Source of the DNA: Microcoleus sp. FACHB-1515
GTDB taxonomy: Bacteria > Cyanobacteriota > Cyanobacteriia > Elainellales > Elainellaceae
Length of the DNA: 64,000 bases
Assembly (NCBI RefSeq): GCF_014696105.1
Contig: NZ_JACJPO010000056.1
Coordinates: 1 to 64,000, forward strand
Direction of reading: 5' to 3'
The position numbers and the translations under genes are program-made. This document shows positions 3,361 to 57,650 of this stretch, piece after piece; position 1 is the first letter of the stretch, and each line of letters starts with the position of its first letter. The notes beneath the pieces were generated by a model. That model saw only the letters and a program-made list of their open reading frames with translations, had not been told where the DNA came from and did no database searches.

Positions 3361-4116
3361 ATGGCTAGAAATACACAGAACTCCATTCAACTACTTGTAG
3401 ATAATGCTGACAATTCTATTGCTAGCTTTATTGAAGAAATAGATAGAGTTAAGTCTGTTTTGGAGAAAAACTATGAGTCAGAAACCAGCGAAATCCCAAG
3501 AGAAAAACTTTTTGAGGATATAGAGAGATTGATCGTTGTATCAGAACATATAAAAGCCGCCGAAAATCTCTTAGATAAAATTGATATTCTTCAGTCAGAA
3601 TATGAGCCATTAGCGGAAGAGATGAGAGCCAGATATGCAGATTTTTTGACGGCTGAAGATGTAGAGAAGATTGAAGAATTAGAAGCTTGTGCAAAGGCAC
3701 CTCAGGAAATGCTTTTAGCGCAAGGAGTAATGATTCATGCGTTTCTAAATGTTGAAGATGCAGTCGAACAAGCTAACTTGTTATATACTGGTCTAGTTAA
3801 AATCTCTGAGGCTTTAGAGAAATACATCAAGTATTTCACTCCTCAAGCAAGAGAGAATGCAAGAAAAATCGCTAGTAGCTTTCTTGCGGACTCAACTTAC
3901 AATCCAGACAATCATCCAGATCAAACAGAGATAAAAAGTTGCATGATTGCGTTGAGAAATACAGCAAGAGCGGTGTTATGGCAGATTGATCAGTATCAGC
4001 AAGAAGAGAAGTATACCGTTGGAGCAATTTTAGACTGGATGCAAACTTCTTCAGGCTGGTTAGGGAATGATTTTGATGATTGCCTCGATTACGTCAACCA
4101 AGTAAGAAAAGAATAG
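3361..4116 (+). CDS. hypothetical helical protein, partner of a PIN nuclease
   Basis: A 251-residue acidic, almost wholly alpha-helical protein with no glycine-rich loops, signal peptide or membrane segment. Heptad-like stretches lie around residues 15-110 (IASFIEEIDRVKSVLEKNYE and onward), suggesting a long coiled coil or helical bundle. I do not recognise a family. It starts at an ATG with no obvious Shine-Dalgarno sequence and ends 19 bases before a PIN-domain gene, so the two are probably cotranscribed. This position is where an antitoxin would be expected, although 251 residues is long for one. Base composition is clearly more AT-rich than clpC, as is that of the next gene, which suggests the pair arrived together by transfer. 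Confidence 0.6.
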   Translation: MARNTQNSIQLLVDNADNSIASFIEEIDRVKSVLEKNYESETSEIPREKLFEDIERLIVVSEHIKAAENLLDKIDILQSEYEPLAEEMRARYADFLTAEDVEKIEELEACAKAPQEMLLAQGVMIHAFLNVEDAVEQANLLYTGLVKISEALEKYIKYFTPQARENARKIASSFLADSTYNPDNHPDQTEIKSCMIALRNTARAVLWQIDQYQQEEKYTVGAILDWMQTSSGWLGNDFDDCLDYVNQVRKE

Positions 4117-4135
4117 TATTTAGGGGCAAGTTGCG

Positions 4136-4591
4136 TTGTATCTACTTGACACAAATCACTGTAGCGACATCCTTTCCAGAAAAAATGCAAATGTAGCTAA
4201 TAAACTTAGCCAACTTCCAAGAGAGTCTTCCATTTCCATAAACACAATAATTTATGGAGAACTCACATTGATGGTTGAGAAATCCGAGCGAAGACCTGAG
4301 AACCTTGTCCTGCTGAATGATTTTCTAAGACTTGTAAGAATTTACACGGTAGATGAAGGAACAGCAATGATTTATGGAAATCTTTATGCTCAAATATTTA
4401 AACAGTTTGCACCAAAAGATAAGGCTAAGAGGAGAAAATTTAGCCTTAAGGAAATTGGAATTCACAATCGCGATTTATGGATTGCAAGCAGCGCAATTCA
4501 ACACGATTTGATTATTGTTTCATCTGATAGTGACTTTGCTCGAATGCAAGAAGTCAAACAGCTAAAGATAGAAACCTGGAGAAATGCATAG
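4136..4591 (+). CDS. VapC-like PIN-domain ribonuclease (toxin)
   Basis: PIN-fold protein of 151 residues. The acidic metal-binding residues expected for VapC-type RNases are visible: Asp in the N-terminal MYLLDTN, a Glu in IIYGELTLM, Asp in NRDLWIASSA and Asp pairs in SSDSDF near the C-terminus. Such proteins cut tRNA, rRNA or mRNA when not held by an antitoxin. The start is a TTG with AGGGGC 8 bases upstream; no ATG fits the conserved N-terminus. The gene follows a 251-aa helical protein by 19 bases instead of the usual small DNA-binding antitoxin. AT-rich like its neighbour. Confidence 0.85.
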   Translation: MYLLDTNHCSDILSRKNANVANKLSQLPRESSISINTIIYGELTLMVEKSERRPENLVLLNDFLRLVRIYTVDEGTAMIYGNLYAQIFKQFAPKDKAKRRKFSLKEIGIHNRDLWIASSAIQHDLIIVSSDSDFARMQEVKQLKIETWRNA

Positions 4592-22007: not shown

Positions 22008-22763
22008 GTGACAGCCCACGAAGTAAGTCATCCTGAATCACAAGAAATTTGCGATGCGCTGCTACAGTTTATGCAACAGCAATTAGCAGGCGTTGAGCGT
22101 AAAGAAGCAGAAGATACCTGCGCGTTTTTTCATCCAGAAGGAAGCAGATTTGCGTATCTGTATCATCAAAGGAACAAGCCAGAAACGCGAATTTATTTTC
22201 GTGCTAATCCTAATACAGATCCTCGATGGTTTCCAGATGGTGTAAAACTTCAGAAGCGATTGAGATTCGACAATTCTTGGGCGCAGAGATTTCCTTATTT
22301 CTTCGACGTTTCGGCATCTGATAATTTGGAGAAGGTCGCTGTGTTCCTCATAGAAGAAGCATATCCTCTTTCTATGAAGCTGAAAACGAAGCACTCTAGA
22401 AAACGCCTAGAATACTTTACGTCGGAAGAGGTTGAAGCAGTTAAATTTGTTGAAGGAAGCGTTAAATCAATCCGCGTTAATGCCTATGAGCGAAATCGCA
22501 AGGCGCGTAATGCTTGCTTGAAGCACTATGGCACAGCTTGCTTTATTTGCGGGTTCAGTTTTGCTAGTTTTGGTAAAAGCTTTGCAAGCTTCATTCACGT
22601 ACATCACCTAGTTCCGATTTCGTCAATTGGTCATGAATACCATTTAGATCCGATTAAAGATTTAAGGCCAGTCTGTCCGAACTGTCATGCAGTAATCCAT
22701 AGACGAGAACCTCCTTTTGGAATTGAAGAAGTGAAGAGCATGTTAAAGAAACATCAGCACTAA
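22008..22763 (+). CDS. HNH endonuclease-domain protein
   Basis: A 251-residue protein starting at GTG. The C-terminal third is an HNH domain: CFICGFSF (first Cys pair, about 176), IHVHHLVPIS (His-His, about 199), DLRPVCPNCHAVIHR (second Cys pair and Asn-His, about 222). The N-terminal 150 residues form a distinct unrecognised domain with LYHQRNKPETRIYFRA, which might recognise DNA. This layout (variable sensor plus C-terminal HNH) resembles McrA-like modification-dependent or phage-defence nucleases, but that is inference. Base use is more AT-rich than the preceding operon. Confidence 0.85.
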   Translation: MTAHEVSHPESQEICDALLQFMQQQLAGVERKEAEDTCAFFHPEGSRFAYLYHQRNKPETRIYFRANPNTDPRWFPDGVKLQKRLRFDNSWAQRFPYFFDVSASDNLEKVAVFLIEEAYPLSMKLKTKHSRKRLEYFTSEEVEAVKFVEGSVKSIRVNAYERNRKARNACLKHYGTACFICGFSFASFGKSFASFIHVHHLVPISSIGHEYHLDPIKDLRPVCPNCHAVIHRREPPFGIEEVKSMLKKHQH

Positions 22764-54828: not shown

Positions 54829-54858
54829 AAAGGAGGATGGATGGCGGATGATTTTTAG
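54829..54858 (+). promoter_or_regulatory. strong ribosome-binding site and 5-codon frame ending in an in-frame amber codon
   Basis: AAAAGGAGG (54829-54836) is followed after 4 bases by ATG 54841, then GCG GAT GAT TTT and TAG at 54856-54858. The frame is the same as that of the long ATPase gene, which continues GTC TTG AAG CGG. Either the TAG is a recent nonsense change in the true N-terminus, or it is a mini-leader with re-initiation at TTG 54862. Confidence 0.75.
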
Positions 54859-54861
54859 GTC

Positions 54862-56169
54862 TTGAAGCGGATCTTCAACGCCTTTGATCCGTTTAGGCCG
54901 CTTCCCGCAGGCGATCCCGTGTATGTGGACTGTCGGGAGGTGCGGGGCGACGGCAATATTTTAGAGGAACTGGGCAAGGAAATCCGGTTTGCCGATCGAA
55001 TGACCTGTCAGCTTTATGCCGGACATCGGGGCGCAGGCAAGTCCACCGAACTGCTCAGGCTGAAGAAAGATTTGGAAGATCATCAGTTTCGCGTCGTTTA
55101 TTTTGCCGCAGATGAAGAGGATATCGACGCGGAAGATACGCAGTACACCGATATTTTGCTGGCCTGCACTCGTCATTTAATGCAGGATTTGAAGGGATCT
55201 GATAAAAATCCCGTCGCGAAGTGGCTGCAAGACCGGACGCGATCGCTCGTCGCTTTAATGGGCAGCGAAATGAAGTTTGAAGGTGTGGCGATCGAATCGC
55301 AAATTAGTCAGTTTGCCAAGCTGACGGCAACGCTGAAGGCGAGTCCGAATACTCGACATGAAATCCGGCGCGAAATTGAGCCGCATACGGTTTCTTTAAT
55401 TGAAGCGTTGAACGAGTTTATTAAAGAGGCGATGGCGCGTCAAAATGAATCAACTGGGCAGCTTGTCGTGATTGCAGATAGCCTCGATCGCATTACGCCG
55501 ATCGTCGATTCGGAAAGCGGACGTAGCAATTATGACCAGATTTTTATCGATCGCAGCGAACAGCTTAAAAGCCTAAATTGCCATGTTGTTTATACTGTTC
55601 CGATCTCGATGGTGCATTCCAATCGAGCCAGCGATATTGAAGCCATCTACGGCACTGGAACGCAAGTTTTGCCGATGGTGATGGTGCAAACTCCTGATAA
55701 TCAACCCTATGAACCTGGCATTCAAAAACTGAAGGAATTGGTTTGTAAACGGGTTGATATGGCTGTTCCACGCTATGCCCTAGAACCCGATTTACCCAAT
55801 GTATTTGACCAGAAACAAACGTTGGAGCGGCTATGCTTGATGAGTGGGGGGCATGTCCGCGATCTACTTCTGCTGATGAAGGCGGCAGTGAAGCAGATCG
55901 ATCGCCTTCCAATTACAGCGAGGGCGGCACAGCGGGCAATTAGTGCAGAGCGAGAAATCTATCATCGAACGGTGGATGATCCACAGTGGCCGATTTTGGC
56001 TGAAGTTTGGCGAACCAAGAAAATTCGCAATGATGAAACGCATCGAAGTTTGCTGTTTCGTCGCTGCATCTTGGAATATCGACAGATTAATGCAGATGGA
56101 GCATTTGAGCCTTGGTACGATGTGCATCCTTTAATTCAAGGTTTGAAGGAATTTCAGGAAGCTTTATGA
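54862..56169 (+). CDS. P-loop ATPase of a two-gene ATPase/TPR system
   Basis: A 435-residue ATPase from TTG 54862, downstream of an in-frame TAG (see previous entry). Walker A YAGHRGAGKST at about 52-62. Walker B-like LVVIADSLDRI at about 201-211, resembling the hhhhDxxDR motif of STAND/KAP-type ATPases. GGHVRDLLLLM at about 332 resembles sensor-2. No membrane segment or nuclease domain is seen. The family N-terminus (NAFDPFRPLPAGDPVYVDCR) suggests true translation may start at ATG 54841. Its stop overlaps the start of the TPR partner (ATGA, 56166-56169). Similar pairs occur in other cyanobacteria; I know of no described function. Confidence 0.82.
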   Translation: MKRIFNAFDPFRPLPAGDPVYVDCREVRGDGNILEELGKEIRFADRMTCQLYAGHRGAGKSTELLRLKKDLEDHQFRVVYFAADEEDIDAEDTQYTDILLACTRHLMQDLKGSDKNPVAKWLQDRTRSLVALMGSEMKFEGVAIESQISQFAKLTATLKASPNTRHEIRREIEPHTVSLIEALNEFIKEAMARQNESTGQLVVIADSLDRITPIVDSESGRSNYDQIFIDRSEQLKSLNCHVVYTVPISMVHSNRASDIEAIYGTGTQVLPMVMVQTPDNQPYEPGIQKLKELVCKRVDMAVPRYALEPDLPNVFDQKQTLERLCLMSGGHVRDLLLLMKAAVKQIDRLPITARAAQRAISAEREIYHRTVDDPQWPILAEVWRTKKIRNDETHRSLLFRRCILEYRQINADGAFEPWYDVHPLIQGLKEFQEAL

Positions 56170-57650
56170 ATTCAGAATCGATCGATTGGAACGCCGAAAT
56201 CGACTTCGATCCAGAGGAAGAATATCAGTCACTCCTCCGCACTTTGCGCTGGACAGAAGGATTTGGACTGATGTTTGTGCGCTGTTCGCCCGCAGAGGGA
56301 ACAAGCCTGATCGATCGCATCCACAAAGACTTACCCCAGAAAAAAACCGAAACCCTAACCCTCGGTGCATCTGACTGGAATCTCTACGATATTGTCAATA
56401 ATCTCCCAAATAAAGATGAAATCGAAATTCTCTTTATTCAAGGTTTAGAAAATCCGATCTACGACTATGAGAAAAATCGGATGTGGGATGATTCAAGCGA
56501 TCGCTATTCCTACAGCTTATCCGGCGTTCCTCGGCTACTGAGTCACTTAAATATGCGCCGAGAAAGCTTTCGAGATAATTTCAAAATCTGCTTTGTTTTT
56601 CTCGTGCCGCTGTTCGTTTTGAAGTATTTAATTCGTCGTGCGCCTGATTTTTTTGATTGGCGATCGGGTGTGTGGGAGTTTGACACCGATCCAGAAGTTA
56701 TTAAGAGAGAAGTAATCAGGGTTTTTAGAGAGGCAGCTTATCACAAATATTTAATTCTTACTTCTGAGGAGCGAAATCAAAAGATCTTGGAAGTTCAATC
56801 CTGGATTGAAGAAGCTCAACCATCTCAATTAAAAGCTAGACTCTTGTATAAACAAGGTATGTTTTTCTATATTGATCGTGATTTTGTTGTGGCAATTGGT
56901 TGCTATGATAAAGCTATAGAAATTGAACCTGACTTTCTCCTTACTTGGCTCGGTAAAGCTGTAGCGTTAATGGAGCTAGAGCGTTATGAAGAGGCAATTG
57001 TTAATCTTGATGAAGTAATAAAAATCAAACCCAATTATTTCTATCCCTGGTGCCTTCAAGGAGACGCATTAAAGAAGTTGGGATACTATGAGAAAGCAAT
57101 TACTAATTATGACAAAGCTATAAAACTTGATTCTGATCATCATTGGATCTGGATTGAGCGAGGTCATGCACTTGAGAAACTAGGGCAATACTATGAAGCA
57201 CTTTCTAGTTACAATAAAGCACTAAAAATTAAACCTGACTACGACTATGGGTGGAGTTGCCGAGGCCATGCTTTGGAGAAATTAGGACAATATAAGAAAG
57301 CATTAGATAGCTATAATAAAGCTATAGAAATTGAGCCTAATGATCCCAGTAATTGGTGTTGGCAAGGTATCTCACTAAGGAAGCTGGGACACTACAGAAA
57401 AGCACTTTTCAGTTACGATAAAGCTATAGAAATTAAACCCGATTATGCCTTTGCTTGGAATGAGCGAGGCTATGTGCTAAGAAAACTTAGACGCTACGAT
57501 GAGGCAATTGCTAGTTACGATAGAGCTTTAGAAATCAATCCAGATAATGAAGTGAGTCAAACTGGCAAGCGTACATTGATGAAGCGAACGTCACGGAGGT
57601 TAATGCTGTTTTTGACATCACTTTTAAAATCGCTAGGTTTTATGCGCTGA
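56166..57650 (+). CDS. TPR-repeat partner of the ATPase, with N-terminal P-loop-like domain
   Basis: A 494-residue protein from ATG 56166. The N-terminal domain (about 1-190) includes FVRCSPAEGTSLIDRI at the place of a P-loop but without GKS/T, IEILFIQGLEN as a Walker B-like strand, and DNFKICFVFLVPLFVLKYLI with APDFFDWRSGVWEF as a sensor-like region: a degenerate NTPase fold. Seven TPR units follow (about 222-465; for example AIVNLDEVIKIKPNY and ALDSYNKAIEIEPND), then a short basic hydrophobic tail (FLTSLLKSLGFMR). The TPR part is more AT-rich than its neighbours. Coupled to the ATPase by a 4-base overlap. Confidence 0.85.
   Translation: MNSESIDWNAEIDFDPEEEYQSLLRTLRWTEGFGLMFVRCSPAEGTSLIDRIHKDLPQKKTETLTLGASDWNLYDIVNNLPNKDEIEILFIQGLENPIYDYEKNRMWDDSSDRYSYSLSGVPRLLSHLNMRRESFRDNFKICFVFLVPLFVLKYLIRRAPDFFDWRSGVWEFDTDPEVIKREVIRVFREAAYHKYLILTSEERNQKILEVQSWIEEAQPSQLKARLLYKQGMFFYIDRDFVVAIGCYDKAIEIEPDFLLTWLGKAVALMELERYEEAIVNLDEVIKIKPNYFYPWCLQGDALKKLGYYEKAITNYDKAIKLDSDHHWIWIERGHALEKLGQYYEALSSYNKALKIKPDYDYGWSCRGHALEKLGQYKKALDSYNKAIEIEPNDPSNWCWQGISLRKLGHYRKALFSYDKAIEIKPDYAFAWNERGYVLRKLRRYDEAIASYDRALEINPDNEVSQTGKRTLMKRTSRRLMLFLTSLLKSLGFMR

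Follow-up and report, generated by a model that had tools for sequence, protein, structure and literature searches.

Within the window, by which we mean the whole 64,000-nucleotide stretch of Microcoleus sp. FACHB-1515 DNA that was analyzed, two same-strand open reading frames encode a putative ATPase (gene A) and a partner carrying a TPR array (gene B), both of them single-copy in the genome. The features discussed below are as follows.

54830-54836, + strand: Shine-Dalgarno-like AAGGAGG 5' of ATG 54841, read from the sequence
54841-54858, + strand: five-codon frame MADDF with an in-frame TAG (54856-54858), same frame as A; relatives lack the stop
54862-56169, + strand: gene A, predicted AAA+/STAND-type ATPase, 435 aa, TTG start; P-loop kept in 98/99 homologues
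55021-55047, + strand: Walker A GHRGAGKST of A; G54, G57, G59, K60 and T62 invariant in the alignment
55462-55491, + strand: Walker B LVVIADSLDR of A; D206, L208, D209 and R210 invariant in the alignment
55846-55863, + strand: sensor-2-like GGHVRD of A; G329, G330 and R333 invariant in the alignment
55918-56124, + strand: predicted winged-helix domain of A (AlphaFold2 model)
56166-57650, + strand: gene B, predicted inactive AAA+-like N-domain plus TPR array, 494 aa
56166-56831, + strand: N-domain of B, about 220 aa, putative AAA+ core without P-loop (alignment and model), homologous to the N-domain of nSTAND1-WD40 partners
56637-56669, + strand: RAPDFFDWRSG motif of B; R158, D164, W165, R166 and S167 invariant in 51 sequences
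56841-57554, + strand: seven TPR units of B (TPR_1, E 8e-58), the best-scoring six at 56943-57554
57579-57647, + strand: C-terminal hydrophobic/basic tail of B, KRTSRRLMLFLTSLLKSLGFMR, read from the sequence; a few relatives end similarly

The four-base overlap of the two genes (ATGA, 56166-56169) and the seven TPRs of B are as the preliminary description had it, but a start at 54829 was not borne out. The frame opened by ATG 54841 reads MADDF, is closed by TAG at codon 6 and continues with VLKRIF, and the uninterrupted open reading frame begins at TTG 54862. Relatives of A read M-x-Q-D-F-Q/A-x-L-K-R-I with no stop at this site, and the nearest relative (locus L078) reads MVQDFQILKRIYNAF across it. 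ATG 54841 is likely the ancestral start of A, and the simplest account of the TAG would be a single substitution in a Gln codon or an assembly error. We consider it unlikely that this is a decaying copy in which the TAG silences A: a good ribosome site and ATG do precede the stop at 54856, and the TPR array of this B is degenerate without recent expansion, but the remainder of A is open with every motif present, a restart at TTG 54862, 3 bases past the stop, would preserve the conserved core, B is intact and the TAG may be a draft-assembly error. As a separate observation, the L078 gene (289-1620) is itself interrupted by an in-frame stop in mid-gene.

An ATPase and its P-loop-less partner

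The motifs GHRGAGKST, LVVIADSLDRI and GGHVRDLLLLM, from which a STAND/KAP-like ATPase had been proposed, are all present in A. GHRGxGKST and DNLDR/DSLDR (of the hhhhDxxDR type) are near invariant among its relatives, with the core residues invariant in alignments of 22 and 40 relatives, and A thus combines the Walker A and the hhhhDxxDR-type Walker B that mark the STAND class. Assignment to a named family is another matter. Pfam matches of A to AAA_16, NPHP3_N, KAP and nSTAND5 are all below threshold; for KAP NTPases (PF07693) A scores 13.9 bits against a cut-off of 20, which two relatives at approximately 35% identity do exceed. The best NCBIfam match, the Sll1717 family P-loop ATPase (NF047389), covers the ATPase part at 22.8 bits, far under the cut-off of 75, and the PADLOC model PDC-S20 matches weakly at 24.6 bits. 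The literature on Sll1717 and Npun2340 yielded no characterization; Leipe et al. reportedly named an Npun2340/2341 family in 2004, to which A may correspond. The first outcome that would have spoken against a two-component system, membership of A in a well-characterized non-immune family, did not arise, as A falls in no characterized family.

The AlphaFold2 model of A (pLDDT 77) comprises an ATPase core, a helical lid and, at residues 353-421, a probable winged helix, whose helices (353-370, 373-385 and 392-399) and strands (403-409 and 415-421) are modeled with moderate confidence. Its best solved Foldseek match is Cdc6/Orc1 (2qby_A, E 8e-5) at a TM-score of about 0.2, and with moderate confidence in this fold placement we regard A as an uncharacterized, Orc/Cdc6-like AAA+ (STAND-type) ATPase. 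The N-domain of B, which matched no Pfam family, was modeled at the same pLDDT (77) and retrieved AAA+ chains of the T4 clamp loader, ORC4, ORC5 and RuvB (E from 1.4e-4, prob 0.99) with low TM-scores of 0.34-0.42. The model points, again with moderate confidence, to an AAA+ core stripped of its P-loop, in keeping with the degenerate P-loop-like domain proposed earlier, and a P-loop is found in 98/99 A homologues and 0/79 B N-domains. Sequence searches of solved structures returned no convincing match for A or the B N-domain, and no mutual sequence homology was detected between the two.

The RAPDFFDWRSG motif of the B N-domain is not conserved in the nSTAND1-WD40 partners. AAA+ arginine fingers usually lie just before a strand, and in the model R158 ends a helix that precedes a strand, which would put it in that position.

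Among known systems, clamp loader and ORC-Cdc6 AAA+ assemblies resemble both modules in fold and likewise combine active and inactive subunits, but the likeness is one of fold only, at low TM-scores, and A/B has no replication link. A closer parallel in layout is nSTAND2, a two-gene operon of an active STAND protein and a partner with eroded NTP-binding motifs and a variable C-terminal module (Kaur et al. 2021, PMC8195603, Fig. 6C). A/B likewise pairs a P-loop-bearing A with a B N-domain modeled as an AAA+ core, but in B the P-loop is wholly lost rather than eroded, and its tails are receptor arrays of TPR or WD40, nSTAND1, NACHT or, rarely, HetZ-related modules, whereas GT4 and HEPN are the most common modules on the inactive nSTAND2 partner. 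The nSTAND2 family model (PF20702) matched neither A nor its relatives in Pfam scans with E limits of 1 or 0.1, and nothing exceeded its cut-off in 40 genomes including that of Microcoleus sp. FACHB-1515. We therefore reject membership in nSTAND2, on the unmatched model and the differing modules, while noting that A/B is laid out like such active/inactive pairs and would work in a similar way.

Conservation of the pair and its genomic setting

A and B form a conserved pair in hundreds of cyanobacteria, far beyond what chance would give, and the second outcome that would have spoken against a two-component system, lack of conservation as a pair, did not arise either. A is carried by 57/98 related genomes and the B N-domain by 137/291 genomes of the class (cyanobacteria sampled), which makes the family common, yet we found no description of it in the literature searched. 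Finding relatives in genome contigs depended on the query: a single sequence recovered none and an alignment did. In 76 of the 80 best named loci the B N-domain adjoins A, and in the remaining four the contig ends 106-282 bases past A. Where B follows A (71 loci), the four-base overlap recurs in 30 and the spacing is within 60 bases in 45; in a few loci the two genes are split by inserted sequence or lie beside a second copy. Even at 25-31% identity the pair is kept in 17/20 loci, the others being two solitary A genes and one at a contig end. Distances of A and the B N-domain correlate in a mirror-tree comparison (r 0.917, permuted maximum 0.176), a value to which shared descent contributes.

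Two solitary distant relatives of A (L169, L170), without B, sit beside a conserved gene of approximately 200 aa and a gene for a P-loop protein. In Pseudanabaena sp. UWO311 and a matching genome (L133, L281), B is a 1122-aa protein with two tandem N-domains followed by TPRs.

In part of the Nostocales the gene order around the pair is fixed, with a radical-SAM gene preceding the pair (24/80 loci) and, in 10-15 loci, an hflX-like GTPase gene, a glutathione-synthetase-like gene and ftsZ downstream, these gene names being our reading of the sequences. Nine plasmids carry the pair, at identities of 36% or less, and scans of 50,697 phage records and of viral contigs recovered no copy. In Microcoleus sp. 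FACHB-1515, dnaX is the divergent neighbor of A, as had been pointed out, but the adjacency is peculiar to this genome and carries no functional signal: in the 29 further dnaX loci searched in the family, the 1.5 kb on either side of dnaX contains neither A nor B, and the same-genus genome has a different flank. A promoter and terminator scan was uninformative.

The AT-richness of the TPR part, from which transfer had been proposed, is real in this copy (GC 0.377, GC3 0.31, against GC3 of 0.47-0.65 in most neighbors; 0.36 over the whole B frame) and suggests local exchange or import here, making transfer plausible for this copy. As a general sign of transfer in the family we reject it, since TPR GC3 lies below that of A in only 22/62 loci. 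Two other compositional outliers were seen elsewhere in the window. An AT-rich patch at 3361-4591 (GC 0.36-0.375, GC3 about 0.31) encodes a 251-aa protein and then a PIN-domain protein (PF01850, E 3e-10) and is possibly a toxin-antitoxin-like import, and an AT-rich frame at 22008-22763 (GC 0.42), unlike its neighbors in composition, has an HNH domain (PF01844).

The preliminary description had likened the pair to STAND-type signaling or defense modules, and of this the conserved sensor ATPase/TPR layout stands, while genomic evidence for defense was found neither in phage and viral collections nor in effector domains or the Nostocales locus. An anti-phage or abortive-infection role, in which the TPR array would sense phage proteins and A-B assembly would halt the cell through an unrecognized activity, nevertheless has several observations on its side and is, in our judgment, fairly unlikely rather than far-fetched. 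The STAND-type layout, the weak PDC-S20 match of A, a hypervariability of the repeats like that in fungal NLRs (PMC4986451), the plasmid copies and the prediction that similar active/inactive pairs of the nSTAND2 type are counter-invader systems (PMC8195603) would fit such a role, as would a distant A-like domain within a MoxR/SAV_2336 conflict-type operon. Set against this are the lack of any copy in the phage and viral collections scanned, the fixed housekeeping synteny in many Nostocales, the regulatory nature of the recognizable outputs (see below) and the B tails themselves, as Pfam scans of B proteins were negative for nuclease, toxin, TIR and CHAT domains, in line with the effector absence reported at the outset. 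The A-like domain in question lies on a Nostoc sp. C057 plasmid (L158, 4207-7131), where it is fused to a SAV_2336-type protein, with a MoxR ATPase next to it and an FGE-family gene nearby.

Variable tails and a probable variable ligand face

While A and the B N-domain are constant, the tails of B differ and comprise TPR, MalT-type TPR, nSTAND1-WD40 and NACHT-TPR forms. For A relatives at about 35% identity the next protein is mostly 1000-2000 aa long with nSTAND1, most with a WD40 tail, and more distant A genes have partners with MalT-type TPRs or NACHT plus TPRs. These cyanobacterial nSTAND1-WD40 proteins follow an A relative and share their N-domain with TPR-type B (hhalign 98.7%, E 4e-16), but, unlike B, have an nSTAND1 ATPase of their own and a WD40 tail.

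The TPR arrays vary between close strains. Strain pairs whose A proteins are 97-98% identical have 15 versus 3, 8 versus 19 and 6 versus 11 TPR units, although some counts are altered by frameshifts (for example in L156). Near-identical repeats occur in 47/62 B arrays compared with 8/27 control TPR arrays (p 9e-5), the controls being a small set taken from different genomes. In the closest repeat pairs within an array, nonsynonymous changes peak at canonical TPR positions 12, 34, 9, 2, 13 and 5, and Magliery and Regan list positions 2, 5, 9, 12, 13, 33 and 34 as variable and ligand-facing (PMC1261162). At these ligand positions pN/pS is 0.93 for repeats at least 80% alike and 1.32 for those at least 90% alike (95% interval 0.93-1.90), against 0.39-0.40 at other positions; control arrays display a weaker form of the same pattern (0.79 against 0.56). 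These data support a variable ligand face in B arrays, and relaxed constraint at the ligand positions is also possible because pN/pS there is not significantly above 1. The Microcoleus sp. FACHB-1515 array, whose most similar units share 68% DNA identity, appears to be an old one without recent expansion.

The same data bear on whether the pair might be a housekeeping AAA+/TPR assembly or chaperone-like factor without a receptor role. AAA+ and TPR proteins frequently work in assembly and the Nostocales locus is fixed, but the patchy presence (57/98 genomes), several-fold differences in array length at near-constant A and the exchange of the tail for WD40 or NACHT modules make this reading very doubtful.

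Outputs and a proposed receptor switch

In a few relatives the pair is joined to an output that can be recognized. In Fischerella muscicola (L122), B runs on into HetZ-related protein 2 (NF037965, 545 bits, cut-off 400), a fusion that recurs in another Fischerella-like genome (L284). At two further loci (L078, L125) the B N-domain terminates in a ribbon-helix-helix-like segment, and the downstream gene encodes another such segment, then TPRs and then an output domain, which is HetZ-related in L078 (552 bits, below the curated cut-off of 612) and a GAF-SpoIIE phosphatase in L125; we infer that the ribbon-helix-helix segments relink the two halves. The ribbon-helix-helix tail resembles a common cyanobacterial protein of approximately 120 aa, and its use as a query revealed no further split systems. 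In four Nostocales loci (L098, L126, L274, L275) a complete B lies upstream of A, and directly after A comes another, truncated B of 177-212 aa that lacks TPRs; in L274 and L275 we considered the short B (199-212 aa) as part of a split system and rejected this, since it is a truncated second copy and has no ribbon-helix-helix partner.

HetZ is a regulator of heterocyst differentiation (PMC9410556). Recognizable outputs are rare, with HetZ-2 fused to B in two cases and one split locus each for a HetZ-related domain and SpoIIE, none being identified in the other loci, and they are regulatory. A defense role is not required for A/B, because these rare relatives are wired to gene regulators.

Our results lead us to propose, with a probability of roughly 50%, that A and B constitute a ligand-sensing ATPase receptor switch in which the TPR receptor evolves fast and the output is signaling or transcriptional. 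A would be the sole partner able to bind and hydrolyze ATP, and the B N-domain would dock onto it, with R158 or R166 perhaps supplying an arginine finger to its ATP site. The ligand, which is most likely to be a protein or peptide, would bind to the concave face of the TPR array, rebuilt rapidly by gain and loss of repeats and by changes at contact positions, and the A-B interface would translate binding into an altered nucleotide state or assembly of A. In the TPR-only form the output is probably a regulatory signal relayed through contacts between proteins, while in the rare relatives it would be visible in cis or through the ribbon-helix-helix link, as a HetZ-related regulator or a SpoIIE-type phosphatase.

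Fungal NLRs whose arrays consist of TPR or WD40 repeats are STAND-type ATPases that also have near-identical repeats, repeat-number variation and concave-face variation (PMC4986451), but they unite ATPase, receptor and an NLR effector domain in a single protein, whereas A/B is bacterial, consists of two proteins and has no NLR effector. It is tempting, if rather improbable, to regard A/B as a widespread cyanobacterial NLR counterpart split over two genes, whose fast-changing TPR arrays would recognize non-self or kin molecules and feed cell-differentiation regulators of the HetZ group. Also improbable, and a shade more so, is a role of the pair in telling self or kin apart among multicellular cyanobacteria, with variable TPR receptors marking strains and adjusting differentiation or cell fate; array variation among near-identical strains, the HetZ-related outputs and the fungal parallels (PMC4986451) would agree with it, but unicellular genera such as Xenococcus and Prochloron also carry the pair, and HetZ links are rare. 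As a receptor switch, A/B would join an active and an inactive AAA+ protein to arrays whose ligand-contact positions differ from strain to strain. It would provide a testable bacterial case of the receptor diversification known from fungal NLRs, and the rare HetZ-related and phosphatase fusions offer a first clue to what is under the control of such receptors.
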